Positions 4,362 to 17,038 of a stretch of DNA of 29,988 nucleotides are shown piece after piece. The position numbers and the translations under genes were made by a program. How positions within the stretch are numbered: position 1 is the stretch's first letter; every line of letters begins with the position of its first letter. The notes under the pieces are model-generated. The model saw only the letters and a program-made list of their open reading frames with translations. It was not told the DNA's origin and searched no databases. The stretch is from a virus. The DNA is taken from positions 1-29,988 of IMG/VR virus record IMGVR_UViG_3300020204_000253. One strand, given 5' to 3'.

Positions 4362-4413
4362 AAGGTCCGAAGTAAAGAAATAAATTATAAAAATATTTCT
4401 TTGCTTTGGACTT
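4362..4413 (+). promoter_or_regulatory. 20-bp stem-loop between hydrolase and primase genes
   Basis: Positions 4362-4382 pair with 4394-4413 over 20 bp with one bulged G (4365) and an 11-nt AT-rich loop. Two pairs are G-U wobbles valid in the plus-strand RNA. No U-tract follows, so it is not a classical intrinsic terminator. Its 3' arm contains the -35 box of the primase promoter. Confidence 0.75.
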
Positions 4414-5926: not shown

Positions 5927-6655
5927 ATGGCATCGTATAAAAAGTATGAAGACATTTTGAAGATCGAACTGGTGTCGCATAGCACTTCACCAGCTCCAGA
6001 GAAGTATGGTAAGGATTTAAAAGAACTAATTACCTTCTGTGCACGAGTCTCAAATCCTTCTAACCAGTCAAATATGGATACGGCTGACAAGCTAATTAAG
6101 TATCTTCTTAAGCACAAACACTTCTCGCCTTTTGAAATGGTAAATGTCTGCCTAGAGATTACTTCTACCAGAGACATCATTCGACAGATTCTTCGTCATC
6201 GTTCTTTTACATTTCAAGAATTTTCACAACGATATGCTGATCCAGTGCAGGAGCTAGACTTCTGTATTCGAGAGTGTCGGTTCCAAGATACAAAGAATCG
6301 GCAGAACTCTATCTCTATAAATGCCGCGCTACAAAATGATCAAGATTATTTTGAGCGTAATCGCATCAGTTCAATCTTCTATAATTTACAACATGAACAT
6401 ATTCAAAAATGCAAAGAAGATTATTCGTTTCTAGTGTCACATGGTGTGGCCAAAGAACAAGCCAGAGCTATTCTTCCTGAAGGCAACACAATCTCTCGTT
6501 GCTACATGAGCGGAACTCTCAGGTCTTGGCTTCACTATATAGAAGTTAGAGAGAAAAACGGTACACAAAAAGAACATATGATGATTGCTCGTGAATGCGC
6601 AAAGGTTATCTCAAAGTTATTCCCACCGATCATCGATTTACAGGAGAACATTTAA
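5927..6655 (+). CDS. thyX: Flavin-dependent thymidylate synthase ThyX
   Basis: A 242-aa protein with the ThyX signature RHRSFTFQEFSQR at residues 90-102 (RHRx7S) and the usual FSPFEMVNVCLEI and LPEGNTISRCYMSGTLRSWLHYI segments. ThyX makes dTMP from dUMP using FAD, NADPH and methylene-tetrahydrofolate and is unrelated to T4 Td (ThyA type). It is translated directly after the SNase gene (1-nt gap), and its stop overlaps the nrdJ start (TAATG), so dTMP synthesis and ribonucleotide reduction are coupled in one operon. Confidence 0.95.
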   Translation: MASYKKYEDILKIELVSHSTSPAPEKYGKDLKELITFCARVSNPSNQSNMDTADKLIKYLLKHKHFSPFEMVNVCLEITSTRDIIRQILRHRSFTFQEFSQRYADPVQELDFCIRECRFQDTKNRQNSISINAALQNDQDYFERNRISSIFYNLQHEHIQKCKEDYSFLVSHGVAKEQARAILPEGNTISRCYMSGTLRSWLHYIEVREKNGTQKEHMMIARECAKVISKLFPPIIDLQENI

Positions 6656-8004
6656 TGTCATTAGAGAATTACACTTCAGAGATCTTATCTTCGGACTTCC
6701 TTCAGAAGTATGTTGGGAAGCAGCCCGATTGGGGGTTTAGTAATCTCGGGTACATCGTCTACAAGAGAACCTATTCAAGAAAGATTGATGAGAACACCAC
6801 TGAAGAATGGTGGCAGACTGTTGCACGTTGCGTAAACGGTGCACAAAAACTAGGAGCCAAATATACTCCTGATGAGGCTCAACGGTTATATGATCTCGTG
6901 TTCAACCTGAAGTGTAACTTCGCTGGCCGTATGTTGTGGCAGCTTGGTACATCGACTGTTGATAGGTTTGGTGCCAACTCACTTCTTAACTGTTGGTATA
7001 CAGCTATTCGTAAGCCCGAAGACTTCTGTTTTATTTTTGAGAACCTCATGCTTGGGGGAGGCGTCGGCTTCTCAGTAAAACGCGAAGACGTTCACGAACT
7101 ACCAAAGGTGAAGAAGGGTGTTGTAATTGCTCATAAGCTTACTAAAGACGCAGACTATATCGTTCCCGATTCGCGCGAAGGTTGGGTGATGCTGCTTAAA
7201 AACATCCTCAATTCATATTTTGTGACAGGTAAGTCGTTTAGTTATTCAACTATTCTTGTTCGTGGCGCAGGTGAGACTATTGCTGGATTCGGCGGCACTG
7301 CTTCTGGTCCGCGTATTCTTATTGAAGGAGTGGAAAAGATCAGCAAGGTTATCCTCAATCGCGAAGGAAAGAAGCTGCGTTCTATTGATGTTCTAGACAT
7401 CGCTAACATTATTGGTTCTGTTGTGGTTGCTGGGAACGTTCGTCGCTCTGCTGAAATCGCTGTTGGTGATCCAGACGACTTTCATTTTCTACGTGCAAAG
7501 CGTTGGGATCTCGGGAACATTCCTAACTGGCGAGCCATGTCGAACAATACAATCTCGGCTGATTCTTATGAGCAAATTAGCAATACAGTATGGGATGGGT
7601 TTGAAGGCAACGGCGAACCTTATGGTCTCTTCAATCTCCCGCTAGCTAAAAAGTATGGTCGCCTTGGCGATGAACGTAAAGACGACTGCGAAGGTGTTAA
7701 TCCTTGCTTGACTGGAGATACTTTGATTACCACGGATCAAGGAGATAAGCTTCTGAAAGATATTATCTTTAATATTGAAGATACTAAGGTATTGACAATG
7801 AACACCGATACCAAAGAACTTAGTTATGAACGTCTGGTTTACCGTGGGTTGACTCAAGAGTTTGCTAATGTTATCTCTGTCAAATGCAAGGATGGTACGG
7901 TGTTGAAGTTGACTCCAAACCATCATGTCTTTGTAAAAGACAAAGGTTGGATTCCTGCTTCAGATCTAAAGAGTGGGGATAAGGTTTTCAAGGTCAAGAA
8001 ATAG
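6655..8004 (+). CDS. nrdJ: NrdJ N-extein fused to split-intein N-half
   Basis: A 449-aa product starting MSLENYTSEILSS. AGGAG lies 8 nt upstream of the ATG at 6655, and TAATG overlaps thyX. Residues 1-350 are the N-terminal half of a class II (adenosylcobalamin-dependent) ribonucleotide reductase: EEWWQTVARCVNGAQ, FAGRMLWQLGTSTVDRFGANSLLNCW, LMLGGGVGFSVKREDV, IVPDSREGW, IIGSVVVAGNVRRSAEIA, GNGEPYGLFNLP, ending CEGVNP. At C351 (codon 7705-7707) an intein begins: block A CLTGDTLITT and block B LTPNHHVFV, ending with a stop after 99 intein residues. The reductase is therefore incomplete alone. The remaining 295 residues are in the gene at 8759-9772, joined by protein trans-splicing to about 645 aa. 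Confidence 0.93.
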   Translation: MSLENYTSEILSSDFLQKYVGKQPDWGFSNLGYIVYKRTYSRKIDENTTEEWWQTVARCVNGAQKLGAKYTPDEAQRLYDLVFNLKCNFAGRMLWQLGTSTVDRFGANSLLNCWYTAIRKPEDFCFIFENLMLGGGVGFSVKREDVHELPKVKKGVVIAHKLTKDADYIVPDSREGWVMLLKNILNSYFVTGKSFSYSTILVRGAGETIAGFGGTASGPRILIEGVEKISKVILNREGKKLRSIDVLDIANIIGSVVVAGNVRRSAEIAVGDPDDFHFLRAKRWDLGNIPNWRAMSNNTISADSYEQISNTVWDGFEGNGEPYGLFNLPLAKKYGRLGDERKDDCEGVNPCLTGDTLITTDQGDKLLKDIIFNIEDTKVLTMNTDTKELSYERLVYRGLTQEFANVISVKCKDGTVLKLTPNHHVFVKDKGWIPASDLKSGDKVFKVKK

Positions 8005-8009
8005 TTTTT

Positions 8010-8017
8010 TATAAATA
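8010..8017 (+). promoter_or_regulatory. T4-type late promoter of the intein-associated endonuclease gene
   Basis: Perfect TATAAATA, 6 nt after the stop of the intein N-half gene. With T4 late spacing, transcription would begin near 8023-8024, inside the 5' arm of the hairpin at 8015-8044, so late transcripts cannot form that hairpin. Confidence 0.8.
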
Positions 8018-8044
8018 TACTTAGGGATTGGAGCCTAAGTATAT
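8015..8044 (+). promoter_or_regulatory. Start-codon-sequestering hairpin upstream of the endonuclease gene
   Basis: A perfect 11-bp inverted repeat: ATATACTTAGG (8015-8025) pairs with CCTAAGTATAT (8034-8044), with an 8-nt loop GATTGGAG. The loop carries the GGAG ribosome binding site, and the 3' arm includes the first two bases of the ATG at 8043. In read-through nrdJ transcripts this should block endonuclease translation. Confidence 0.85.
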
Positions 8045-8786
8045 GTTGACCATAGAGAACCTAGATGTAGAAAAGTTTGGTAAGATAAAGGAATGGGTTG
8101 ATGTTTTGTACTCGCATAGTCCATCAAGATGCACTATGCCAAAGTCTAAAAGACAAGAGTGGGCAGAAGCCCATCCTTTATCTTCTGATCTAGTAGAATA
8201 TATGTCCATGATATATTCCTCTGGATATGGCCTAAAGGTAATATCTAGACAGTTGGGAGTTTGTTATTCTCAGTTACGTGGTCTGTTTCAGGATCATTGG
8301 AGAATAGAAATAAACAAAGGAAATAATATTGTTTATGATAAGACCAAGCAGTTCAGATCAAAGAAGGCCAAAGAAGATCCAAACAATCCATTTAGAGACT
8401 GGACGAGTAAACAAAGTAGAGTTAAGACTAATCATGGGGTTCAGGGTTATTATATAAACAAGAAAAATCAAAAACTTTGGCTCAGATCAACTTACGAATA
8501 TATCTATTGTAAATGGTTAGACGAACATGATATTGATTATAGGTACGAGGAAAAAATTTTCCAACTAACAAACGGAGAAAAATATAAACCAGATTTTTTC
8601 ATCGGAGATTCTACTATTATTGAGATAAAAGGAAACTTTTATACAAATCGAAGATATAAAGCGGACATGCTAAAAGAGAAACATCCAGAGTTGAAAATCG
8701 TAGTTATAGATGACATCGCACAATATACAAAAAAAGGATATACACAGGAGATAAAAGAATGGAAGAAAACCAGATTATTGAATTAG
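8043..8786 (+). CDS. Free-standing PD-(D/E)xK-type homing endonuclease between intein halves
   Basis: A 247-aa protein from ATG 8043; a TTG at 8028 lies within the hairpin loop and is less likely. Segment GYGLKVISRQLGVCYSQLRGL (about residues 70-90) looks like a helix-turn-helix. The C-terminal domain has LRSTYEYIYCKWLDEHDIDYRYEEKIF, YKPDFF and IIEIKGNF, giving the PD...ExK nuclease pattern with an upstream conserved Glu. This type, including Vsr-like (EDxHD) enzymes, is known beside fractured phage genes with split inteins; I cannot separate the subfamilies by eye. It presumably cuts intein-less nrdJ to spread the cassette. The gene is visibly more AT-rich than the flanking extein DNA. Its 3' end overlaps the next gene by 28 nt. 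Confidence 0.85.
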   Translation: MLTIENLDVEKFGKIKEWVDVLYSHSPSRCTMPKSKRQEWAEAHPLSSDLVEYMSMIYSSGYGLKVISRQLGVCYSQLRGLFQDHWRIEINKGNNIVYDKTKQFRSKKAKEDPNNPFRDWTSKQSRVKTNHGVQGYYINKKNQKLWLRSTYEYIYCKWLDEHDIDYRYEEKIFQLTNGEKYKPDFFIGDSTIIEIKGNFYTNRRYKADMLKEKHPELKIVVIDDIAQYTKKGYTQEIKEWKKTRLLN

Positions 8787-9772
8787 AAGTAGAATCTATC
8801 GAAGTTGAAGAAAATCAAGATGTCTACGATTTAACTACAGAACACAATCACAATTTTTTTGCGAACGGAGTTTTGGTACATAATTGTGCCGAGATTACTC
8901 TTTCAGATAAAGAATGTTGCAACCTTTCAGAGATCTACCTTAACAACATTAGCTCGAAGGAAGAGTTGATTGAGTGTGCAACGCTCTTGTACAAGACGCA
9001 GAAAGCTATCTGTGCGATGCCGTTTATTCACCCAGAAACAACTGAGATCGTTCACAAGAACATGCGTATTGGTGTTGGAATTACTGGTATCTGTCAGTCG
9101 AAGTCGAAGCTTGAATGGCTCTCGGATGCTTATAAAGCGTTGCGTAAATTTGATAAAGTATGGTCAAAGGAAAACGGTTGGAACGAATCTATCCGTCTTA
9201 CCACAACAAAGCCTTCAGGTACTCTTTCCCTGTTAGCTGGATCTTCCCCTGGTGTTCATCCTGGATTCAGCCGCCACTTTATTCGTCGCGTTCGTATGTC
9301 TTCTTCTGATACGCTTGTTGCTACTTGCCGTGGACTTGGTTATCACGTCGAGTTTGCTAAAAACTTTGATGGCACAGAAGATCATTCCACCTGCGTTGTT
9401 TCGTTCCCCTGCTCTTTTGGAGAAGATACAATTCTCGCTAAGGACATGTCAGCTGTTGATCAGCTTGAAATGGTTAAGAAGATCCAGACGGTCTGGTCTG
9501 ACAACGCTGTTTCGGTCACTGTTTACTACCGTAAGGAAGAGCTACCCGCGATCAAGGAATGGCTGAAGGAAAACTACGCCAACTCCCTGAAGTCTGTTTC
9601 GTTCTTGCTTCATTCTGAACATGGTTTCGCACAAGCGCCATATGAAGAGATCACTGAAGAAGAATGGAAGAAGATGTCAGCAAAAGTACTTCCTCTCACG
9701 AATGTGATGATTTCCGAAGGCGCTGACCTAGAAGGTCTAGGTTGCGATCAGGGAGTCTGCCCAATCAAGTAA
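8759..9772 (+). CDS. nrdJ: Split-intein C-half fused to NrdJ C-extein
   Basis: A 337-aa product starting MEENQIIELEVESIE. AGGAG lies 8 nt upstream inside the endonuclease gene. Residues 1-42 are the intein C-half with blocks F and G (DVYDLTTEHNHNFFANGVLVHN), ending in the expected His-Asn. Residue 43 is Cys (codon 8885-8887), both the +1 splicing nucleophile and the catalytic radical cysteine in the joined NP-CAEITLSDKECCNLSE. The rest holds the class II reductase C-terminal half: TTTKPSGTLSLLAGSSPGVHPGFS phosphate-binding region and a C-terminal CDQGVC redox pair. Translation of this gene depends on its own start, so reductase activity needs both genes plus trans-splicing. Confidence 0.93.
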   Translation: MEENQIIELEVESIEVEENQDVYDLTTEHNHNFFANGVLVHNCAEITLSDKECCNLSEIYLNNISSKEELIECATLLYKTQKAICAMPFIHPETTEIVHKNMRIGVGITGICQSKSKLEWLSDAYKALRKFDKVWSKENGWNESIRLTTTKPSGTLSLLAGSSPGVHPGFSRHFIRRVRMSSSDTLVATCRGLGYHVEFAKNFDGTEDHSTCVVSFPCSFGEDTILAKDMSAVDQLEMVKKIQTVWSDNAVSVTVYYRKEELPAIKEWLKENYANSLKSVSFLLHSEHGFAQAPYEEITEEEWKKMSAKVLPLTNVMISEGADLEGLGCDQGVCPIK

Positions 9773-9781
9773 CGAATCTGG

Positions 9782-9801
9782 GGGGACTGGAAACAGTCCC
9801 C
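9782..9801 (+). terminator. GNRA-capped hairpin after nrdJ
   Basis: GGGGACTG (9782-9789), tetraloop GAAA, CAGTCCCC (9794-9801): a perfect 8-bp stem 9 nt after the nrdJ stop. The following sequence is only weakly U-rich (TTCTACTGG), so it may be a partial terminator or an mRNA-stabilising hairpin rather than a strong terminator. Confidence 0.65.
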
Positions 9802-9819
9802 TTCTACTGGAGAAATATT

Positions 9820-10098
9820 ATGAACTACTGTACTTGCCCAATTGAAAATCGCCAAGATGTCCCAGATAAAGTGTGTTTGGTTTGCAATAAACCAACTAGC
9901 TCTTACCTAACCGAAGGTCCAAACAAAGATATTACATACTCATGTAGACGTTGTAAATACTTGTACCATACAGTTGACTCTAGTGGATTGTTTACGGTGG
10001 AGAAGTATCGTTGTAGAAAGTTGAACGATAGCACAGTTCCGTACAACTTGGAGACTCCTCAGTATTGTCCGTTCTTCATGAAGATACCTTTGAGGTAG
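9820..10098 (+). CDS. Small cysteine-rich (zinc-ribbon-like) protein, unknown function
   Basis: A 92-aa protein starting MNYCTCPIENRQDVPDKVC, with GGAG 7 nt upstream of the ATG at 9820; an upstream in-frame ATG at 9742 lies inside nrdJ and is not used here. Cysteines at 4, 6, 19, 22, 42, 45, 65 and 83 include CLVC and CRRC pairs, so it probably binds one or two zinc ions. No further family is recognised. It sits first after the nrdJ hairpin, followed by three more small genes in the same direction. Confidence 0.65.
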   Translation: MNYCTCPIENRQDVPDKVCLVCNKPTSSYLTEGPNKDITYSCRRCKYLYHTVDSSGLFTVEKYRCRKLNDSTVPYNLETPQYCPFFMKIPLR

Positions 10099-10103
10099 TA
10101 TTG

Positions 10104-10211
10104 ATGGAAATTATTGCTGGGTTGAGTATTGTTCTTTTAGGACTAAAGTTGTTGATTGATGTGATGAATTATGTGTTAGATAAGGAAGAAGAAGATGTGT
10201 CAAAGAATTAG
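10104..10211 (+). CDS. 35-aa membrane protein
   Basis: ATG at 10104 is 5 nt after the previous stop. The product is MEIIAGLSIVLLGLKLLIDV, then a polar, acidic C-terminus (LDKEEEDVSKN). One transmembrane helix is predicted from the hydrophobic first 20 residues. It overlaps the next small gene by 17 nt in another frame. Function unknown. Confidence 0.5.
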   Translation: MEIIAGLSIVLLGLKLLIDVMNYVLDKEEEDVSKN

Positions 10212-10365
10212 TCGTACTGAGGTTTATGCCATAGCATTCTGCTTGGCAGCTTTGGTTATGCTTAGTGGCAAAGATAAGTTTGGTTTCTGGTTGTTCATGG
10301 TTGCTGCGATAGTTTGTACTGTTGTAGATATCATAGATAGAATTCGATACAACAAGGAAGAATAA
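10195..10365 (+). CDS. 56-aa two-helix membrane protein
   Basis: ATG at 10195 with AAGGA about 9 nt upstream. Product MCQRISRTEVYAIAFCLAAL..., with hydrophobic segments at about residues 10-25 and 30-47, separated by SGKDKF, and a charged tail DRIRYNKEE. The pattern suggests a two-pass inner-membrane protein. It stops 1 nt before the next gene. Small membrane proteins of this kind can act in lysis or superinfection exclusion, but nothing in the sequence decides between them. Confidence 0.55.
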   Translation: MCQRISRTEVYAIAFCLAALVMLSGKDKFGFWLFMVAAIVCTVVDIIDRIRYNKEE

Positions 10366-10366
10366 A

Positions 10367-10555
10367 ATGCCGATCTACGAATATGATTGTACTGAATGTA
10401 ATAAGAGATTTGAGGTTATTCAGAAGATGTCGGATCCAGACCTAACCAAGTGTGAAGGTTGTGAGAATCAAAAATGTTCAATAAAAAAAGTTCCTTCGAC
10501 GTATGGTATGAACTTCGTAGGAACTGGGTTTTATAAGACGGATTATAAAAAGTGA
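10367..10555 (+). CDS. FmdB-type small zinc-ribbon protein
   Basis: A 62-aa protein MPIYEYDCTECNKRFEVIQK... with C8-C11 and C29/C32/C37, the layout of the FmdB putative regulatory family (PIYEYxCxxCxxxFE...). The cellular family is often annotated as a regulator, but its biochemical role is not established. It is the last gene of the operon and ends directly before a strong bidirectional terminator. Confidence 0.8.
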   Translation: MPIYEYDCTECNKRFEVIQKMSDPDLTKCEGCENQKCSIKKVPSTYGMNFVGTGFYKTDYKK

Positions 10556-10560
10556 TGTAA

Positions 10561-10592
10561 AAAAAGGGAGCCAAGCGGCTCCCCTTTTCTTT
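10561..10592. terminator. Bidirectional rho-independent terminator
   Basis: GGGAGCC (10566-10572), loop AAGC, GGCTCCC (10577-10583), flanked by an A-tract on the left and CTTTTCTTT on the right. It gives a U-tract in both directions and separates the plus-strand operon ending at 10555 from the convergent UvsE-type gene ending at 10591. Confidence 0.9.
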
Positions 10593-11478
10593 AGTTGTTT
10601 CGATATTTAAGTAAGGCCAACTCTTTTGCCTTTGCTTCTAGATCAATGTCACACGGTACATGCTCTACGATCTTGTTGTAAATATAATCAGCGTGTGCGC
10701 GAGGATTACCGCTGAACTCTTCGTAGATCTTCTTTGAATCTGAGTAGTGAAACAAAGGAAGCTTGTCGCGCCAAGTCTGTGCTGCGAGTAACGCTGCTTC
10801 TCTTTCTGGGACGCCTTGTGTGTGAAAAGAGTGATGAAAATAATCAAACGTAATCGGCGTTTTAATCTTTTCTGTGATATACTGGTGCAACTGTTGTACT
10901 GAGTAACAAGATCCCTTGTCGTCGTTTTCTACAACAAGTCGCTTCTGAAGATTTGGTGACAGGCGATAAAAGTTGTCGCAGAACTTGGCAGACGCTTCCT
11001 CTGAAAACGAGCAACCAATGTGGATATTCAGTGGATTCCAGTGTGAAGCTTCTAAACCCATGAGATCAAAAAACTCTGAATGTGTTTCTAGGTCTTTGAT
11101 TGCTGCCTTTACAACGTTTTCTTTCGATGACGCCAACTTAACAAAATGACTAGGATGGGCCGAAAGACGTATATTTGAAACTCTTGCCAGTGTTCCACAC
11201 TCAAGAAGAACATCAGAGATACGTTTATAATCTGGAAGGTCGGATAGGGAATATTCACTGGACCAAGGAAAGAGTTCAGAAGTGACGCGAAATACCTTAA
11301 CATTTTTCGCAGCGTTCCATTCTATAATTTTTTTTAAATCAGTAACGTTTGCCAACGCCAGTTGTGATGCATAAGTAATTCCCTTTTCAAGAAACGTGGC
11401 CTTTCGCATTGTGCGACTGGTGACTACGCCAGATTTCTGAAGCGTCAGGTTGATACAACAATATCCAAAGTTTAGCAT
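10591..11478 (-). CDS. uvsE: UV-damage endonuclease, UvsE/UVDE family
   Basis: A 295-aa protein. The ATG at 11478 gives the family N-terminus MLNFGYCCINLTLQ; a longer frame from 11538 overlaps the upstream gene. Conserved UvsE segments: TSRTMRKATF, WNAAKNVKVFRVTSELFPW, RLSAHPSHF, NIHIGCSFS, RLVVENDDKGSCYSV, ITFDYFHHSFH and LFHYSDSK. These supply the His, Glu and Asp metal ligands of its TIM barrel. The enzyme nicks 5' of UV photoproducts to start repair. T4 uses the unrelated DenV glycosylase for this, so it is a functional replacement. The start lies 4 nt after the upstream stop with no clear ribosome binding site, so coupling is likely. Confidence 0.9.
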   Translation of the reverse strand: MLNFGYCCINLTLQKSGVVTSRTMRKATFLEKGITYASQLALANVTDLKKIIEWNAAKNVKVFRVTSELFPWSSEYSLSDLPDYKRISDVLLECGTLARVSNIRLSAHPSHFVKLASSKENVVKAAIKDLETHSEFFDLMGLEASHWNPLNIHIGCSFSEEASAKFCDNFYRLSPNLQKRLVVENDDKGSCYSVQQLHQYITEKIKTPITFDYFHHSFHTQGVPEREAALLAAQTWRDKLPLFHYSDSKKIYEEFSGNPRAHADYIYNKIVEHVPCDIDLEAKAKELALLKYRNN

Positions 11479-11482
11479 TATT

Positions 11483-11851
11483 TTAGTATATACCGTCTTC
11501 TGCGTAATAGTTAAGACATTTCTTTTTGACCTTGGCAAGACAAGCGGGAATCAGCTGAGGAGGAAACATCGATACTCCGACTTCCCATGCCTTCCATTCG
11601 CTGTCTCCGCCGTCGTGAATTCTGTAGTCCATTATGTGACCGAACTCGTGAATGAGTGTTGCCAGAAGTTTATCTGCGTCTTTCTTAGGATCGTCTGCGT
11701 ATAATTCGACCAGGTCCGAGTCCAAATAAGCACACCCATTAAAAGGGAAAGGCGAAAACTTCAACTGCTTCGCCGTTCCCATGTATTCAACATCAATACC
11801 ATATTCGTTGACGTATTGTATGGCATCTAAAAGTTTTTGCCAGTTGCTCAT
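11483..11851 (-). CDS. Small HExxH putative metallopeptidase-like protein
   Basis: A 122-aa protein with LIHEFGHIMDYRI, the zinc-binding HEFGH motif at residues 68-72, after a predicted helix. The third ligand is not obvious. The N-terminal part (LLDAIQYVNEYGIDVEYMGTAK) is of unknown type. A minimal zincin fold is plausible, and proteolytic activity is not certain. It is the first gene of a two-gene leftward unit with uvsE, driven by the promoter at 11865-11893. Confidence 0.65.
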   Translation of the reverse strand: MSNWQKLLDAIQYVNEYGIDVEYMGTAKQLKFSPFPFNGCAYLDSDLVELYADDPKKDADKLLATLIHEFGHIMDYRIHDGGDSEWKAWEVGVSMFPPQLIPACLAKVKKKCLNYYAEDGIY

Positions 11852-11864
11852 TACTTATACAACT

Positions 11865-11893
11865 ATTATAGCACGAAGTCCGAGCAACCACAA
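11865..11893 (-). promoter_or_regulatory. Sigma70-like promoter for the 122-aa gene and uvsE
   Basis: On the minus strand TTGTGG (11893-11888), 17-nt spacer, TATAAT (11870-11865). The ATG is 13 nt after the -10 box, giving a leader of about 6-7 nt. Stem-loop copy 1 lies immediately upstream. Confidence 0.75.
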
Positions 11894-11904
11894 GCACCAA
11901 ATTG

Positions 11905-11948
11905 CCTTTAGAATCAATGGTTTAGCGCAAGTCGTTGATTCTAAAAGG
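11905..11948 (+). repeat. Dispersed stem-loop, copy 1
   Basis: TTTAGAATCAA (11907-11917) pairs perfectly with TTGATTCTAAA (11935-11945), with a 17-nt loop TGGTTTAGCGCAAGTCG. Two more C-G pairs are possible beyond a one-base bulge. It shares arms and loop with copies at 11997-12052 (inverted) and 15344-15397. It lies just upstream of the leftward promoter at 11893-11865. Confidence 0.9.
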
Positions 11949-11996
11949 AATATAGTCCACCTTATTATATGCATGCATACGCGCGAGAGAAAATTT

Positions 11997-12052
11997 TTAT
12001 TCCTTTTATTTTCAATGACTTGCAGCTAAACCATTGATTTTAAAGAGAATAA
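11997..12052 (-). repeat. Dispersed stem-loop, copy 2 (inverted, degenerate stem)
   Basis: The minus strand carries the loop TGGTTTAGCTGCAAGTCA between arms containing TTTAAAATCAA and TTGAAAATAAA. The outer stem is still paired (TTATTC with GAATAA), while three central positions have become A-A or T-T mismatches. It lies directly upstream of the rightward promoter at 12058-12086. Between copies 1 and 2, 11949-11996 shows no gene. Confidence 0.85.
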
Positions 12053-12057
12053 AAAAC

Positions 12058-12086
12058 TTTACAAATTGGATTAACCGTTATACACT
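12058..12086 (+). promoter_or_regulatory. Sigma70-like promoter for the 62-aa gene
   Basis: TTTACA (12058-12063), 17-nt spacer, TACACT (12081-12086). The ATG at 12095 begins 9 nt after the -10 box, so the message would have almost no leader, and no ribosome binding site is seen. Confidence 0.6.
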
Positions 12087-12094
12087 AGTTCTAT

Positions 12095-12283
12095 ATGAAA
12101 GAAACAATCGTTATCGGAACAAGCGTGACCTGGAAACAGTACTGGAACAAGGATAAAACTCAAGCTGTAGTCAGCAACATCTCCTGTCATAACGGCAAGC
12201 GTGTCGCTCGACTTTTGTTTAAGGACAACCCTGAAGTTCCGTTTTATGTTAACGTTTCCGACCTCAAGGCTGTTAAGAACTAA
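12095..12283 (+). CDS. Hypothetical 62-aa protein
   Basis: MKETIVIGTSVTWKQYWNKDKTQAVV... ending VSDLKAVKN. It is a compact, probably beta-rich small protein with no recognised family. It follows stem-loop copy 2 and a promoter, and it precedes a second small gene 11 nt downstream. Both look like early accessory genes typical of hyperplastic regions of T4-type phages. Confidence 0.6.
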   Translation: MKETIVIGTSVTWKQYWNKDKTQAVVSNISCHNGKRVARLLFKDNPEVPFYVNVSDLKAVKN

Positions 12284-12294
12284 GGTAAATCTCA

Positions 12295-12516
12295 ATGAGT
12301 ATCGATGAACTCACTCGCGAGATTGTCGGAGACGGCAGACCTTGCATGCTTAAGGAATTAGATTCTGACGGCAAAACTCGCAAGCTATTTGGTTGGACGA
12401 TCAACGAAAGCTTTTCACTCACCTTCAAGGTAGAAAAACACAACGAAGGAAAAGTTTGCCTCAAAAAAAATTTTTCTTCCATGGAAAAGGCGCTTGCTTT
12501 TTACAACAATCTATAG
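12295..12516 (+). CDS. Hypothetical 73-aa protein
   Basis: MSIDELTREIVGDGRPCMLKELDSDGKTRKLFGWTINESF... ending KALAFYNNL. Small mixed alpha/beta protein with no family recognised. A weak AAGG precedes the ATG. Its 3' end contains the -35 and -10 boxes of the next gene's promoter (12494-12522). Confidence 0.6.
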   Translation: MSIDELTREIVGDGRPCMLKELDSDGKTRKLFGWTINESFSLTFKVEKHNEGKVCLKKNFSSMEKALAFYNNL

Positions 12517-12522
12517 TATAAT
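12494..12522 (+). promoter_or_regulatory. Sigma70-like promoter for the 83-aa gene (leaderless)
   Basis: TTGCTT (12494-12499), exactly 17 nt, perfect TATAAT (12517-12522), then 6 nt (AAATTT) and the ATG at 12529. No ribosome binding site fits in the expected transcript, so initiation should be leaderless. Confidence 0.75.
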
Positions 12523-12528
12523 AAATTT

Positions 12529-12780
12529 ATGACTACACTTGGAATAGAAGTTTTTGAAGGCGTTCTCTATGATTCTTCGCATGGTTCGCCGTTCGACCGT
12601 GGTTCCTCTGATTATTATTATCACCGCAAGCCAGTGCCACACAAGTGGCTAGATTCTGGTGGTTACCAAAGGGTGGAGTTAGCCGACGCGGATGAAATTG
12701 CTGCGTACATGGCTGGGTACAGATCTGCTGTAGAGCAGGGAATACAAAAAGAATATTGTCACTGGAGCGAAAGACTGTAA
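12529..12780 (+). CDS. Conserved phage hypothetical protein, 83 aa
   Basis: MTTLGIEVFEGVLYDSSHGSPFDRGSSDYYYHRKPVPHKW..., then DEIAAYMAGYRSAVEQG. The DSSHGSPFDRGSxDYYY...PHKW arrangement is a pattern I recognise from small hypothetical proteins of many tailed phages; no function is known to me. Its promoter places the ATG at the presumed transcription start. Confidence 0.7.
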   Translation: MTTLGIEVFEGVLYDSSHGSPFDRGSSDYYYHRKPVPHKWLDSGGYQRVELADADEIAAYMAGYRSAVEQGIQKEYCHWSERL

Positions 12781-12787
12781 TTTAAAT

Positions 12788-13867
12788 ATGCGTATAGCAA
12801 ACGAAAAAGAAGCAATGTATGGTAAGGAGCCTTCTGTTGAGAATCTGCTAGACACAAACGCAGCAGGTTGGTCGTCTGAGTTCAGCGACGCTTTAAACTG
12901 GTATAACTATTCTCCGAAGAAAGAAGAGAAGAAGAAGTGGTTCCTGCAGTACCTAGAAACAGTAGGAGGAAACGTGCAGCTTGCCTCTTTGGTTTCTGAG
13001 TCGTCGTTTATAACTGCAGGATCCATTGCTCGGTTGTGGTCGCGTGGAGTACAATCAGAATCATTACGCGAAAAGCTTCAGGCCTTCGAGGAAAAGATTC
13101 TACGAGAGGGAGAAGAACTTTCTAAACACGCAGCTGCGGCTGCAGAGAAACGCAACGCTACTAAAGCAGCAGCAGTGCGCCGTGATATCGCAGAAGCTAT
13201 CGCACATATTGATATGGTGATTGATGGATTCATCGAGACTGGTAAGACTACGTTCGACGCAGCCTCCTGGATTCGTAATAATAAAATTTCAAAGGAAGCA
13301 CAAGAAGCGATTCAGACTCGCTTTAAACGAGTGCTGGATGAGTTGATTGCCTCAGAAACTGATCCAGAATTAAATGAAGGATATTCAACGTTCAATAAGA
13401 AAAAGAAAACTGTTTTCATTGAACTAATGACTGACATTGTTAGCACAAAGATTTGTACTACAAAGTCAGCTGGTGACCGCAAACCTCGAAAGAAGAAAGT
13501 AATTCCTCCCGAAAAGCTTGTAAAGAATTTAAAATACATGAAGTCGTTCAATGAATTGAATTTAGAATCTATTGATCCGACTATCATTATCGGTGCAACT
13601 TCGCTCTGGGTTTATAACACAAAGTATCGCATACTTACTAACTACGTTTCGGATGAAGGTTTGTCTGTTAAAGGTTCTACCTTGCTAAATATCAACGAAG
13701 CTGAGACAAAGTCCAAGAAGTTACGGAAGCCTGAAGTAACTGTTCCAGAAGTACTGAGATCAGGTAAGGTTCCGCTTCGAAAGGTTTTCGATAATCTCAC
13801 AACTGGTTTCTTGAAAGCAAATGGAAGGATCAATAAGGAAACAATTCTCCTGCGAGTGGTAAAGTAA
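12788..13867 (+). CDS. Hypothetical 359-aa phage protein
   Basis: Product MRIANEKEAMYGKEPSVENLL... with DALNWYNY and KKWFLQYLE near residues 34-57, an Ala/Glu-rich helical stretch (about 98-145, possible coiled coil), a lysine-rich linker (RKPRKKK, about 230), and a C-terminal beta-rich part (SLWVYNTKYRILTNYVSDEGLSVKGSTLLN). The layout recalls a recurrent family of unknown phage proteins. The basic linker would fit nucleic-acid binding, which is inference. No clear ribosome binding site. It is followed without a gap by the 75-aa gene (TAA then ATG). Confidence 0.65.
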   Translation: MRIANEKEAMYGKEPSVENLLDTNAAGWSSEFSDALNWYNYSPKKEEKKKWFLQYLETVGGNVQLASLVSESSFITAGSIARLWSRGVQSESLREKLQAFEEKILREGEELSKHAAAAAEKRNATKAAAVRRDIAEAIAHIDMVIDGFIETGKTTFDAASWIRNNKISKEAQEAIQTRFKRVLDELIASETDPELNEGYSTFNKKKKTVFIELMTDIVSTKICTTKSAGDRKPRKKKVIPPEKLVKNLKYMKSFNELNLESIDPTIIIGATSLWVYNTKYRILTNYVSDEGLSVKGSTLLNINEAETKSKKLRKPEVTVPEVLRSGKVPLRKVFDNLTTGFLKANGRINKETILLRVVK

Positions 13868-14095
13868 ATGAGCAACGACACAACGATTAATTTCTTAGTA
13901 GAAAATGGCTGGGAGTTCAATAAGAATACTGGTAAGGCTTGGCACTGGAAGTATTCTGGTGAAAAGGAAATGAGTATTGACGATTCCATGAAAGTACAGG
14001 AACATTTCGATCCTGAATCTGTTAGAGAGCATAAGATGGTGAACAATCTTAACTCCAAATACGCTCATATGTATAATGAGTATTTGGATTCTTAG
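13868..14095 (+). CDS. Hypothetical 75-aa protein
   Basis: MSNDTTINFLVENGWEFNKNTGKAWHWKYSGEKEMSIDD... Its ATG follows the previous stop codon directly, so the two genes are translated together. Aromatic-rich and acidic, no family recognised. It ends 8 nt before the tRNA at 14104. Confidence 0.6.
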   Translation: MSNDTTINFLVENGWEFNKNTGKAWHWKYSGEKEMSIDDSMKVQEHFDPESVREHKMVNNLNSKYAHMYNEYLDS

Positions 14096-14103
14096 AAAAA
14101 TTT

Positions 14104-14198
14104 CCTCCTATAGTTCAATTGGAAGAACAGCTGATTTATATTCAGTATTAGCGGCAGATTACCGTAAGGTTCAGGTTCGAATCCTGATGGGAGGACCA
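14104..14198 (+). tRNA. tRNA with long variable arm, anticodon loop reads UAU (Ile-type)
   Basis: Acceptor CCTCCTA (14104-14110) pairs with TGGGAGG (14188-14194), then A73 and encoded CCA. D-stem GTTC/GAAC. Anticodon stem GCTGA/TCAGT with loop TTTATAT, so positions 34-36 are UAU (would read AUA). T-arm TCAGG/CCTGA with TTCGAAT loop. The variable region is 24 nt (14147-14170) and can form a 6-bp stem with one bulge, as in class II tRNAs (Leu, Ser, Tyr). A UAU anticodon belongs to isoleucine, whose tRNAs normally have a short variable loop, so identity is uncertain. Confidence 0.75.
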
Positions 14199-14216
14199 AG
14201 AAAAAAGTAGTTAAAT

Positions 14217-14240
14217 TTTAGAAAAAAAAGGTATAATAAT
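14217..14240 (+). promoter_or_regulatory. Promoter downstream of the first tRNA
   Basis: TTTTAGAAAA followed by an A-tract, GG and a perfect TATAAT at 14232-14237. The ATG at 14247 is 10 nt after the -10 box. The -35 region is weak. The sequence closely matches the promoter after tRNA-Lys (15760-15788). Confidence 0.6.
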
Positions 14241-14246
14241 ATTCTA

Positions 14247-14861
14247 ATGGTCAATATTGATATTCCTGCATTTAAATGCTTGATTCGTCAGTCGCATTTT
14301 ACAAAGAACGAGGCGCATCGTGATATCTTTCACGAGGCATATGCGTTTGGTGTGCAGTCTATTTCCTCGAAAATATTGACTTTTCATTTAATGACCGACT
14401 ATGGAATGTTACGTAGTCGAGTGCCTTTGAGCGAAATTTATCTAAAGCCACCAACAGAAGATATTCCCTATTACTACAAGCAATTGTGGGATTGTTTTGG
14501 CGAGTATTGTACGATTACGAAATTTGATTTTTTAAAAGAAAAACGTGCCGAGGTGCTACTGCGAGATAAGCGAAAAATTTGGGCAACATATCTTTTCACC
14601 ATCGATTGGTTTAATAATCCATATAGTGAAGAGCCGTCTGATTATAAGTGCGGTCACGTACTAGTCGCCGATGACGGTTATCTATTATGTCAACCAAACA
14701 ATCGCCTGTTTTGGCGAGATAGTAATTGGGTCACAAAACAATTTCCAATCGCGCCTAAAGAAATAAAAGTTGATCAGGAACACCTATCGGTTGAAACAGT
14801 TGCTGATCGATGGGTTACCGAAGATACCGATAGTTTTTATTATGAGGTAACTAAAGCATGA
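14247..14861 (+). CDS. Conserved hypothetical 204-aa protein
   Basis: MVNIDIPAFKCLIRQSHFTKN..., with FHEAYAFGVQSISSKILTFHLMTDYG, a QLWDCFGEYCTITKFDFL segment and a C-terminal block YKCGHVLVADDGYLLCQPNNRLFWRDSNWV. The last part is typical of a conserved phage family without known function, which I recognise only as a recurring pattern. Its stop (TGA 14859-14861) overlaps an ATG at 14858 that probably was the start of the downstream HNH gene. Confidence 0.7.
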   Translation: MVNIDIPAFKCLIRQSHFTKNEAHRDIFHEAYAFGVQSISSKILTFHLMTDYGMLRSRVPLSEIYLKPPTEDIPYYYKQLWDCFGEYCTITKFDFLKEKRAEVLLRDKRKIWATYLFTIDWFNNPYSEEPSDYKCGHVLVADDGYLLCQPNNRLFWRDSNWVTKQFPIAPKEIKVDQEHLSVETVADRWVTEDTDSFYYEVTKA

Positions 14862-14882
14862 GCGTATGAACCAATCCAGACT

Positions 14883-15338
14883 GTGTCGCCGCGCAAGGCT
14901 ATAAAGCTTCTTGTTCGTGGTGTCGCGATTGCTGAGAAGTATTCAGAAGAAGTCTGGCGTGGCGTCACCAGCCAAATCGTGATTCCTTCAGTTGTTCGTC
15001 TGTTGAACTTCTATAAAATTCCGCATAGAATATACAGGCTATCGAAGCGAAATATTTTTGCCAGAGACAACTGGACTTGCCAATATTGTCAAACACAAAC
15101 GTTTGGTAATAGCGGTACAATCGACCACGTCATACCACGTTCGCGTGGAGGAGAATATTCTTGGGACAATTTGGTAACGGCTTGCAAATCCTGTAATTCA
15201 AAAAAGGGAAACAAGACGCCAGCCGAAGCAGGAATGAAATTGTTCAACAAATCACCAAAGTTGAACTACAGAGCAATCCTGCGAAATCTAGGAGCCTCCC
15301 GCGCAGAATGGCGTGAGTACTTGTTCCTTGGAGCCTAA
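14883..15338 (+). CDS. HNH endonuclease (5' end possibly frameshifted)
   Basis: 151 aa from a GTG at 14883. The HNH zinc-finger core has CQYC (C66, C69), IDHVIPRSRGG (D81, H82), DNLVTAC (N96) and CKSCN (C101, C104), a complete HNH motif. The N-terminal SPRKAIKLLVRG is the usual lead-in of this subfamily, whose members normally start with a segment like YEPI-x-x-VS; here that segment (YEPIQTVS) lies in frame upstream of the GTG without a start codon. An ATG at 14858 overlapping the upstream stop would reach it after a +1 shift. Probably a free-standing homing-type nuclease, placed between accessory genes and stem-loop copy 3. Confidence 0.8.
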   Translation: MSPRKAIKLLVRGVAIAEKYSEEVWRGVTSQIVIPSVVRLLNFYKIPHRIYRLSKRNIFARDNWTCQYCQTQTFGNSGTIDHVIPRSRGGEYSWDNLVTACKSCNSKKGNKTPAEAGMKLFNKSPKLNYRAILRNLGASRAEWREYLFLGA

Positions 15339-15343
15339 ATTTT

Positions 15344-15397
15344 TATTTCCTTTAGAATCAATAGTTTAGCTGCAAGTCATTGATTCTAAAGGAAATA
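15344..15397 (+). repeat. Dispersed stem-loop, copy 3 (18-bp perfect stem)
   Basis: TATTTCCTTTAGAATCAA (15344-15361) pairs perfectly with 15380-15397, with loop TAGTTTAGCTGCAAGTCA. It shares the inner arm and loop with copies at 11905-11948 and 11997-12052. It follows the HNH gene and precedes a sigma70-like promoter, so it probably ends the upstream transcription unit. Confidence 0.92.
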
Positions 15398-15426
15398 TAG
15401 TTCTAGCTTTTTTTGCGCCAATGCGC

Positions 15427-15432
15427 TATACT
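15427..15432 (+). promoter_or_regulatory. -10 box of promoter for the 71-aa gene
   Basis: TATACT with the AGTTCTAT tail that also follows the -10 box at 12081-12086. The -35 is poor (TAGCTT at 15404-15409 with 17-nt spacing). The transcript would have a leader of about 30 nt with AAGGAG. Confidence 0.5.
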
Positions 15433-15468
15433 AGTTCTATAAGGTTGATTAAAGGAGAAAAGAAAATT

Positions 15469-15684
15469 ATGGATTTGTTTGTTTTGTTCGGTGTTGTGAC
15501 TGGCTGGTGGCGTGCTGATGTGCTGGGCGTGTACTCCACCCGAGAAGCGGCTGTCGAAGCTGCCGCCTCCTTTGAAGAGACCGAAGGCCACGGTCGATGG
15601 TATGATTCGTTCCAAGTTTGCGTGCATTATCTGGATGAACCTGCTGAACTTGGACAAAACCGCGTAGAAGATTTCGTCCTGTAG
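15469..15684 (+). CDS. Hypothetical 71-aa protein whose 3' end overlaps tRNA-Lys
   Basis: MDLFVLFGVVTGWWRADVLG..., then YSTREAAVEAAASFEETEG and VCVHYLDEPAELG. ATG at 15469 with AAGGAG about 11 nt upstream. The middle resembles short phage proteins that start with a beta strand and a helix, but no family is certain. The last four codons plus TAG (15682-15684) lie inside the tRNA-Lys gene, so the stop codon doubles as tRNA positions 8-10. Confidence 0.7.
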   Translation: MDLFVLFGVVTGWWRADVLGVYSTREAAVEAAASFEETEGHGRWYDSFQVCVHYLDEPAELGQNRVEDFVL

Positions 15685-15750
15685 CTCAGTTGGAAGAGCA
15701 CCGCACTTTTAATGCGAGAGTCGCAGGTTCGAGTCCTGCCAGGATCACCA
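15675..15750 (+). tRNA. tRNA-Lys (UUU)
   Basis: 76 nt including encoded CCA. Acceptor CGTCCTG pairs with CAGGATC except for a C-C clash at 1:72 and a G-U at 2:71. D-stem GCTC/GAGC, anticodon loop CTTTTAA (UUU), T-arm GCAGG-TTCGAGT-CCTGC. The anticodon stem has a C-A at 27:43. The two mismatches suggest a partly decayed or unusual tRNA. The 5' acceptor arm overlaps the upstream coding sequence. Confidence 0.88.
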
Positions 15751-15759
15751 AAAAGATTG

Positions 15760-15788
15760 TTGTGGTTTTAGAAAAGAAAAGGTAGAAT
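15760..15788 (+). promoter_or_regulatory. Sigma70-like promoter after tRNA-Lys (leaderless)
   Basis: TTGTGG (15760-15765), 17-nt spacer, TAGAAT (15783-15788), then 5 nt and ATG at 15794. Very similar to the sequence after the first tRNA. Confidence 0.7.
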
Positions 15789-15793
15789 AAATT

Positions 15794-15967
15794 ATGACTG
15801 GTGATTACTTGTGCCGTTACTACATCAAAGGACGTCTGACAGAAGAGGTTGTATACGCTTCGTCTCCGTTCCAGGCTCAGCGAATTGTTGAAGCGAAGTA
15901 TAAGGGATCCGACTTCCGTTGGTCTGGACCTCCGAACTTGGCTAAGAACTCCATACGCTGGACCTAA
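15794..15967 (+). CDS. Hypothetical 57-aa protein
   Basis: MTGDYLCRYYIKGRLTEEVV... ending NLAKNSIRWT. The ATG lies 6 nt after the -10 box of a good promoter, with no ribosome binding site, so expression should be leaderless. Contains AQRIVEAKYKG, a short helix. No family recognised. It is followed by a probable structured RNA and tRNA-Thr. Confidence 0.6.
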   Translation: MTGDYLCRYYIKGRLTEEVVYASSPFQAQRIVEAKYKGSDFRWSGPPNLAKNSIRWT

Positions 15968-15979
15968 ATATAGTTTGAC

Positions 15980-16116
15980 ATTGACCTCGCGAATAAGCCA
16001 AGTATGGCGATATCGGAAAGTCGATCGATCGACTCTTGGAAGATTCTGTTCTCTCTCTATCTTCCTTGTAAAGCCGCTGCTGTTTGGAAGTTGCGCGATC
16101 CACCGACGAGGTCAAT
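15980..16116 (+). ncRNA. Putative structured RNA between a small gene and tRNA-Thr
   Basis: No convincing gene lies in this stretch. A 10-bp closing stem joins ATTGACCTCG (15980-15989) to CGAGGTCAAT (16107-16116). Inside are GCCA/TGGC with loop AGTA (15997-16008), a perfect 16-nt palindrome (16019-16034, can fold as 6-bp stem with TCGA loop), and GGAAGAT/ATCTTCC (16038-16065) with a pyrimidine loop. T4 tRNA clusters also contain two stable non-tRNA RNAs of unknown function. Whether this one is transcribed and processed is inference. Confidence 0.5.
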
Positions 16117-16124
16117 CCAGAATC

Positions 16125-16200
16125 GCTGGCCTAGCTCAATTGGCAGAGCATCTGATTTGTAATCAGAAGGTTGTCAGTTCGATTCTGACGGTCAGCTCCA
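16125..16200 (+). tRNA. tRNA-Thr (UGU)
   Basis: 76 nt with encoded CCA. Acceptor GCTGGCC pairs with GGTCAGC (one G-U). D-stem GCTC/GAGC. Anticodon stem CTGAT.../...ATCAG region with anticodon TGT. T-arm GTCAG-TTCGATT-CTGAC. The discriminator is U73, unlike E. coli tRNA-Thr, which has A73. It lies 8 nt after the putative structured RNA. Confidence 0.93.
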
Positions 16201-16222
16201 AATACGCGAAAGTTAAATAATT

Positions 16223-17038
16223 ATGATCCTTGTTGACTTAAATCAGGTTGTGCTGTCAAACCTTATGCAGCAAATCAATATTACCAAAAGTGAGAACGTC
16301 GAAGAGAACTTTCTGCGGCACATGGTTCTGAATTCTATTCGTTCCTACAAGACTAAGTTTGGCCACGAGTTTGGTGAGATTGTTTTATGCAACGACACCT
16401 ACAACTACTGGCGCAAAGACTTCTTTCCTTACTACAAGGCAAACCGCAAAAAGGCACAGGAGTCTTCTCTGTACGATTGGAACGTAATCTTCCAGTCGCT
16501 CAACAAGATCAAAGACGAGATCCGCGAAGTCTTCCCCTACAAATTCGTGGCCGTTCCGCGTTGTGAAGCCGACGACGTGATTGCTGTTCTCACTCGCGCC
16601 TATTGTCAATCCGAGAAGATCCTTATCGTTTCAGGTGATCACGATTTCGTTCAGCTGTTCAAGTACCCTAACGTCCAGCAATACTCTCCTGTTCAAAAGA
16701 AGTTTATCACCGAAGAAAACTCTGTAGAATTTCTCAGAGAAAAGATTATCTACGGAGACTCAGGTGACGGCGTTCCTAACATTGCTTCCGAAGACGACAC
16801 CTTTGTCGCTGGTAAACGACAGCGTAGGGTAACAAACAAGATTATCGAAGCGTTGGAAACAAATCCCAACTATCAGCGCAACAAGGTTCTTATTGATTTT
16901 GACTGTATTCCTGATATGGTTTCAGATGCGATTCTAGCAGAGTTTAAGAAGCCGATGACAGGATCAAAGGATAAGGTTTATCCTTACCTGATAAATAATA
17001 AGCTGAAACTGTTACTTACAGCACATGGAGAATTTTAA
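16223..17038 (+). CDS. rnh: RNase H (FEN-1-type 5'-3' exonuclease)
   Basis: A 271-aa protein (T4 Rnh is 305 aa) that removes RNA primers and adjacent DNA from lagging-strand fragments. Metal-binding acidic residues: D5 (LVDLNQ), CEADD at 114-118, SGDHDF at 137-142 and GDSGDGVPN at 178-186; YYKANRKK (70-77) is the conserved basic segment. The C-terminus is shorter than in T4. It overlaps the next gene by TAATG at 17036-17040 and stands two genes before the sliding clamp. Confidence 0.93.
   Translation: MILVDLNQVVLSNLMQQINITKSENVEENFLRHMVLNSIRSYKTKFGHEFGEIVLCNDTYNYWRKDFFPYYKANRKKAQESSLYDWNVIFQSLNKIKDEIREVFPYKFVAVPRCEADDVIAVLTRAYCQSEKILIVSGDHDFVQLFKYPNVQQYSPVQKKFITEENSVEFLREKIIYGDSGDGVPNIASEDDTFVAGKRQRRVTNKIIEALETNPNYQRNKVLIDFDCIPDMVSDAILAEFKKPMTGSKDKVYPYLINNKLKLLLTAHGEF

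Follow-up and report, generated by a model that had tools for sequence, protein, structure and literature searches.

Palindromic pairs of IHF-like half-sites in helical register with promoters mark candidate early-gene cassettes of a T4-like phage

Three dispersed stem-loops in a 29,988-base fragment of a T4-like phage (IMG/VR virus record IMGVR_UViG_3300020204_000253) appear to belong to composite early cassettes, in which sites of the integration host factor (IHF) type would be phased to a promoter and the whole would double as a recombination repeat; we give this reading a little better than an even chance. The composition of the cassette, the helical register, the half-site pattern, and the insertion and deletion breakpoints at the repeat were computed directly. 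The record consists of this fragment only (the window), and copy counts are counts within it. The window encodes members of the gp44, gp45, gp62, and RegA families, as expected of the T4 superfamily, and among the matches listed its nearest isolated gp44 relatives (54 to 57%) are those of HTVC008M, Kyanoviridae, the Methylophilales phages (Melnitz), and Stenotrophomonas phage DLP_6.

We hypothesize that every copy supplies the upstream, regulatory half of a cassette made of a palindrome, a sigma70-type promoter, and a small accessory gene. The palindrome would be an inverted, nearly abutting pair of IHF-like half-sites (AATCAAYNACTTR) with A/T-rich arms outside. Host IHF, or a close DNABII relative, would most likely bind there and bend the DNA on the helix face that favors RNA polymerase. 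With the −10/−35 elements a constant number of helical turns downstream, the polymerase would be recruited to or stabilized at them, and early genes could fire soon after injection. IHF is a candidate binder suggested by its consensus; activation of the promoters by binding, and their early timing, are likewise predictions from the arrangement of the sequence. The same ~60 to 110 bp recur at several junctions within a genome, so that homologous recombination from one copy to another could delete, add, or exchange the intervening genes. The arms pair beyond the half-sites, and the same DNA could also form a hairpin in transcripts from upstream, a possible second function.

The initial annotation had placed three stem-loops in the window, each beside a sigma70-like promoter, and all three were found there with such promoters (Table 1). 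The stretch TAGTTSTATA, common to the three promoters, overlaps the −10 element and continues past it. RNA folding z-scores of copies 1 to 3 are −3.8, −3.9, and −4.7. The loop motif GTTTAGC-N(0-2)-GCAAGTC occurs three times, compared with 0.01 expected from shuffles, and the longer form of the exact motif was found elsewhere only in three near-identical contigs. Relative to the promoter, copy 3 has its loop motif in the opposite orientation from copies 1 and 2, in keeping with a nearly palindromic element. As a sole marker the loop motif was discarded, since it picks out at least 120 IMG/VR stretches whose flanks are nearly all unlike.

The arms reveal a more informative pattern. The IHF consensus is given as WATCAANNNNTTR in the available part of PMC8942017, and without the R at position 6 in that of PMC5896051. 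Five of the six arms in the window match WATCARNNNNTTR (WATCAR-N4-TTR) exactly and the sixth has one mismatch; exact matches to WATCARNNNNTTR on both strands of the window number 11, against 4.6 expected, five of them being element arms. Relatives were collected with the downstream exonuclease gene (16223-17038) as bait, which gave 27 loci (loci are cited by L numbers). A hairpin scan of these loci that was blind to sequence recovered stem-loops recognizable as family members in L131 (one) and in L129 and L130, which share a pair; by exonuclease protein these are 82% relatives. A stem-only pattern, AGAATCARTN(12-18)AYTGATTCT, which fixes TCAR and leaves TTR free, matched 99 stretches, of which L172, L207, L216, and L236 were kept for their outer stem length and interior likeness; they lie beside gene 32-like open reading frames (ORFs; gp32 named by eye), and L207, L216, and L236 carry the same element. 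L246, L217, L215, and L166 have outer stems at least as long as those of L207 and L236 and were dropped for their unlike interiors. Among the eight distinct elements (three from the window, two from L130, one from L131, and those of L172 and L216, which have the longest outer stems), the outer stem and the loop letters vary and each arm retains TCAR-N4-TTR (16 of 16 arms, with the full WATCARNNNNTTR in 15). The conserved loop that the initial annotation had proposed as a target for a protein or an RNA is, on this pattern, the inner half of two inverted putative half-sites and not a separate recognition loop. A DNA-binding protein is thus indicated, and the loop as an RNA ligand is not favored, because its letters drift and the half-sites stay.

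The half-sites keep a fixed distance from the promoter. From the loci in hand we collected 37 distinct elements, using a pattern in which TCAR, TTR, and their mirror images were fixed, took the better promoter on either side (scored out of 12), and measured from the dyad to the first base of the −10. With a promoter score of at least 8, 27 of 33 elements lie at 54 to 57 or 63 to 66 bp (naive P = 1e−18, a value that is too small because the elements share ancestry); the proportions were 22 of 26 at a score of at least 9 and 13 of 16 at a score of at least 10. Nearly all in-register elements sit at 54 to 55 or 64 to 65 bp, two classes one helical turn apart. The window group lies at 55 bp (as does copy 1), many of the L136 to L143 kin at 64 to 65, and L261, L265, L275, L288, and L294 mostly at 54 to 55. 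Out of register at a score of at least 8 are L136 (35), L252 (34), L254 (62), L289 (39), L268 (78), and L401 (81); L268 and L401 each have, on the opposite side, a second promoter that scores 9 and is in register. As for gene content, L261 and L275 encode tail sheath stabilizer, UvsX, and helicase families and L250 a gp23-type major head protein; among the proteins scanned, those of L288 matched a single family, whose function is not assigned, and those of L294 none. A fixed helical register combined with half-sites argues for a role at the DNA level, on one face of the helix.

Whether the element acts as DNA or as RNA is the point at which the strongest competitor has to be weighed. Promoter-early stem-loops (PeSLs) of RB49/phi1 and other T4-type phages are said to have been described by Arbiol in 2010 and Comeau in 2014. 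In a strict PeSL, the stem-loop would bind no protein; it would end transcription of the upstream gene and be joined to the early promoter of the following one. The hairpins are strong (z of −3.2 to −8.1 in seven elements), those of copy 3, L131, and L216 directly follow stop codons, and several have a T-rich stretch past the arm; moreover, DLP_6 has intrinsic terminators between its half-sites and the −10. The outer arms also pair as such a terminator would: at distances of 17 to 30 from the dyad, own-arm pairing is 0.74, compared with 0.54 across elements (two element lengths were aligned on the dyad, the longer ones off by at most half a base). In contrast, pairing fails where the half-sites are kept. 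At distances of 13 to 16 it is near background (0.57 versus 0.53), and at distance 7, an N of the IHF consensus, own pairing (0.32) is below the cross-element value (0.45), which argues that the inner part preserves half-sites and not a stem. Termination, furthermore, requires no constant helical spacing, and a terminator scan of 9700-16300 flagged none of the three copies (with a loop limit of 8, it may have passed them over). Palindromes stand back to back with outward promoters in the window, L143, and L250, an arrangement in which neither promoter would send a transcript into a terminator. We consider the strict PeSL unlikely, yet the best placed of the alternatives. From the sequence comparison we conclude instead that the inner part has been retained as half-sites for a protein on DNA, to which the outer arms may add a hairpin function.

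The half-sites recur well beyond the window. The palindrome was found in 27 of 38 records searched, 18 of which had been picked because of the motif, and its reversed control in none of the 38. Short-query BLAST returned half-sites and near-palindromes, mostly intergenic, in phages of Rhodobacter, Vibrio, Erwinia, Pectobacterium, and Stenotrophomonas, with an E-value of 5e−6 for RcHartney (29 bp identical), at least 0.03 for the other listed phages, and 0.007 for the best plasmid. In bacteria, the half-site with a CCTTT flank is present in 93 genome stretches, mostly Proteobacteria by record title, where about 2 would be expected from a naive four-letter estimate. The 14-base half-site was counted in 59 genomes of the Pseudomonas family (42 versus 2 for the reversed control, 21-fold), 60 of the Acidovorax family (63 versus 1, 63-fold), and 61 of a Bacteroidota family (15 versus 5, 3-fold), the three seed genomes having been chosen for holding the motif. 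IHF is found mainly in Proteobacteria. This recurrence in proteobacterial genomes favors a host protein, and the consensus points to IHF. The sequence CCTTTRAAATCAAYGACTTA (L304 to L396), in Proteobacteria genomes, often stands 5 to 8 bp past the 3′ end of a tRNA gene in the same orientation, and 20 of 94 bacterial copies lie within 60 bp of such an end, compared with 0.6% of random positions. Reading CCTTTRAAATCAAYGACTTA as an attachment site was abandoned, as only 3 of 10 adjacent ORFs scanned (from 17 loci) had integrase domains; with so few integrase neighbors, the tRNA-linked copies support IHF only weakly.

Stenotrophomonas phage DLP_6 (KU682439.2) provides a cultured relative in which the half-sites are arranged differently. 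It has 29 half-sites AATCARYNACTTR and none of the reversed control; across 19 named phages, the counts were near the reversed control except in DLP_6, and the half-site is absent from the Sinorhizobium phages phiM12 and phiN3. In DLP_6 (L301, L440 to L454), the half-sites are mostly direct pairs 25 to 26 bp apart, and a promoter follows in 14 of 15 regions, the −10 lying 33, 34, 43, 44, or 54 bp past the end of the proximal half-site (L440 lacks a good promoter, and one of the values, 34, relies on a degenerate second half-site). The best period of this spacing is 10.4 bp (R = 0.97), a fit reached by none of 100,000 random sets. An intrinsic terminator often lies between half-sites and −10, its tail overlapping the −35 of the next promoter. 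The available part of PMC5349666 lists 25 PHIRE "phage promoters" of DLP6, 22 of which come in twos ahead of gene clusters. Judged by count and pairing, these elements are very probably the same half-site. That text takes the motif as the promoter itself; we offer an alternative reading, in which it is a candidate protein site upstream of the promoter. The DLP6 elements differ from those in the window in being direct repeats 25 to 26 bp apart instead of an inverted pair and in often having a GC-rich terminator before the −10. Direct pairs exactly 56 bp apart form a third arrangement in L294 (record G033; 16292/16348, 19174/19230, 27022/27078, and 30472/30528).

These arrangements bear on the possibility that the palindrome is the operator of some other dimeric protein of host or phage, with the dyad TCAAYNACTTR-N3-YAAGTNRTTGA, activating or repressing early promoters in register. 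True dyad symmetry, the tight spacing of the halves, and the fixed register would all suit such an operator, which accounts for a strict palindrome better than one IHF does. However, half-sites that are single or direct, as in DLP_6, other phages, plasmids, and beside tRNA genes, indicate that symmetry is not required, and the pattern equals a known asymmetric site; we find this operator doubtful, a shade more so than the strict PeSL. Returning to IHF-type sites, we would suggest only tentatively, and at somewhat less than an even chance, that an aquatic T4-like branch and DLP_6 place early genes under a common host-IHF architecture, with half-sites phased in whole turns and set inverted in one and direct in the other, and that the palindrome serves as a recombination joint at which accessory genes, with early control in place from the start, are gained and lost.

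Relatives differ in gene content at the cassettes. A 529-bp unit consisting of a promoter and a short gene is present in L141, L142, L144, and L137 and absent from L136, L139, and L140 (L138 starts too late to show the palindrome); L140 and L141 are 99.4% identical over 9150-13000. The breakpoint of the unit falls within ATATTCTTTCGAAAAAACTT, a 20-base stretch common to two cassettes. In L141, the unit consists mostly of short repeated DNA of the GGTCTCTGGGAACGCT type (8600-9050), and GGTCT-type arrays occur near the start of L132 to L134. L130 and L131, the closest diverged relatives, lack 15344-15765, and the cassette 3 unit is confined to the window group; in both, the next ORF lies within about 35 bp of the HNH gene with a plain promoter in front. 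Conversely, directly after the 62-residue ORF, where no cassette stands in the window, L130 and L131 have one with differing cargo ORFs. Breakpoints of module gain, loss, and exchange are thus located in the cassette, as in PeSLs, and comparison of the sequences suggests that these changes probably arose by recombination between cassettes. The initial annotation had envisaged that copies 2 and 3 bracket a whole accessory module. They do bracket a longer stretch, much of which is matched in L130 and L131 by counterparts in unchanged order; the mobile unit is rather cassette 3 with the cargo that follows it. It had also suggested comparing relatives for module swaps, which are indeed seen, and an 89-kb relative carries five dispersed copies, the opposite of the constant gene order and lack of further copies that it had named as grounds for giving up the idea. 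A homing-endonuclease target, suggested by the HNH ORF beside copy 3, was set aside because the same ORF occurs without the cassette in L130 and L131, and an integron attC because its core sequences do not appear to fit. It is highly improbable that the copies are promoter regions duplicated long ago and homogenized by gene conversion, in which the stem-loop does nothing beyond recombination: copies within one genome are alike and recombination at them is seen, but the half-site pattern and register persist where other letters have diverged, and also in DLP_6, where the sites are direct and not inverted.

Several observations weigh against a promoter-phased IHF cassette, besides the shared ancestry of the elements behind the register statistics. 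The palindrome is absent from 9 of the 19 exonuclease-relative records searched (19 of the 27 loci; it is present in the other 10), from HTVC008M, Mosig, and Melnitz, T4-types with Proteobacteria hosts, and from all 19 named phages, among them T4, RB49, KVP40, and nt-1. We accordingly rejected broad presence in isolated phages, for which the E-values are weak apart from that of RcHartney. The −35 of copy 3 is poor, and the pairing of the outer arms is something that a pure pair of protein sites would not need. Two forms of the arm occur, AATCA and TTTCA, and the full consensus is present in 51 of 74 arms and in neither arm of four elements, in a set of 37 collected with a pattern already requiring TCAR and TTR. 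Finally, the IHF footprint is about 35 bp, so two dimers would hardly fit on both half-sites together, which leaves a strict palindrome unaccounted for by one asymmetric IHF. Nor does IHF account for the TTTCA variant of the arm.

Table 1. Cassette features and adjoining genes in the window
Feature	Position	Strand	Remarks
Copy 1 palindromic stem-loop	11901..11956	−	Strand of its promoter
Copy 1 half-site AATCAATGGTTTA	11912..11924	+	Consensus WATCARNNNNTTR
Copy 1 half-site AATCAACGACTTG	11928..11940	−	
Copy 1 promoter	11865..11893	−	TTGTGG (11893)-17-TATAAT (11870-11865), then AGTTGTATA
122-residue ORF served by copy 1	11483..11851	−	Contains HEFGH
Copy 2 palindromic stem-loop	11998..12055	+	Inverted, divergent from copy 1
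Copy 2 half-site TTTCAATGACTTG	12010..12022	+	One mismatch to IHF consensus
Copy 2 half-site AATCAATGGTTTA	12027..12039	−	
Copy 2 promoter	12058..12086	+	TTTACA (12058)-17-TACACT (12081-12086), then AGTTCTATA
62-residue ORF served by copy 2	12095..12283	+	
HNH endonuclease ORF just upstream of cassette 3	14883..15338	+	
Copy 3 palindromic stem-loop	15340..15397	+	
Copy 3 half-site AATCAATAGTTTA	15356..15368	+	
Copy 3 half-site AATCAATGACTTG	15373..15385	−	
Copy 3 promoter	15404..15432	+	Weak −35 TAGCTT (15404)-17-TATACT (15427-15432), then AGTTCTATAAGGTTGATT
Insertion unit	15344..15765	+	Cassette 3, 71-residue ORF, and tRNA-Lys
71-residue cargo ORF	15469..15684	+	Pfam DUF7336 resemblance, below cut-off
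tRNA-Lys in insertion unit with cassette 3	15675..15750	+	

Among the neighboring genes, the 122-residue ORF had no protein family match; its HEFGH we take to be a zinc-peptidase-like motif. The 62-residue ORF has counterparts in the same place in L130 and L131 (homology by eye; that in L131 is cut by the contig end). The only Rfam hits in the window are three tRNA genes (Ile, Lys, and Thr) in its accessory region, at 14104-14198, 15675-15750, and 16125-16200; six other sources searched for a known RNA family gave nothing. Elsewhere in the window, the ribonucleotide reductase gene (6595-9772) is apparently split by an intein, with an inserted ORF at 8028-8786 (by eye only), and a 20-bp A/T-rich hairpin unrelated to the cassettes lies between two ORFs at 4363-4413.

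The cassettes bear on how nonenteric T4-type phages switch on many early promoters together and on how accessory genes arrive already expressed. A helically phased IHF-type repeat, if true, would name a host factor on which such phages depend and would explain at base resolution where their gene content changes. Searches of literature text, with figures and subscription papers outside their reach, found no paper with AATCAATGACTTA or TAAGTCATTGATT and none combining IHF, T4-like phages, and early promoters.

Well-known IHF sites at phage promoters and attachment sites are those at lambda H′ and Mu Pe. The window elements resemble them in having WATCAANNNNTTR with an A/T-rich flank and a predicted helix-face-dependent action on the promoter, and differ in having two inverted, near-abutting sites, in serving several promoters per genome, and in doubling as candidate recombination repeats. 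The RIB/RIP elements of enterobacteria are repetitive IHF-binding palindromic elements that are not known to be tied to promoters in a fixed register. Like these, and like the stem-loop miniature inverted-repeat transposable elements with IHF sites treated in the available part of PMC5896051, the window elements are repeated extragenic hairpins with (predicted) IHF sites; unlike them, they are tied to promoters in register, and no transposon ends were seen. Repeated intergenic elements of a tailed virus that carry promoters, and that were tested as promoters, are reported for halovirus HF2 in PMC8707807; HF2 is an archaeal virus, and its repeats have another sequence.

The closest known system is the PeSL. 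The accessible text of PMC4503421 describes PeSLs of T4-type phages as dispersed units of early promoter and stem-loop between accessory genes that mediate module shuffling; in that of PMC4177764, the PeSL paper appears in the reference list only. As in PeSLs, a sigma70-like promoter and a stem-loop are joined in several dispersed copies, with early timing a prediction. In the first 50,000 of the 164,018 bases of RB49, two repeat hairpins near 38182 and 39092 enclose a −10 (by eye), whereas the hairpin of the window cassette ends near the −35 and its dyad lies 54 to 65 bp before the −10. The likeness to PeSLs drawn in the initial annotation thus holds for the promoter/stem-loop units and for module gain, loss, and swap at the cassettes of relatives but not for the RB49 anatomy; its statement that the sequence is distinct from that of RB49 was correct, as the palindrome is absent there. 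In summary, the window carries a PeSL-like cassette system of new build, which behaves like PeSLs in the gain and loss seen at the cassette and differs from the RB49 element in anatomy and sequence.

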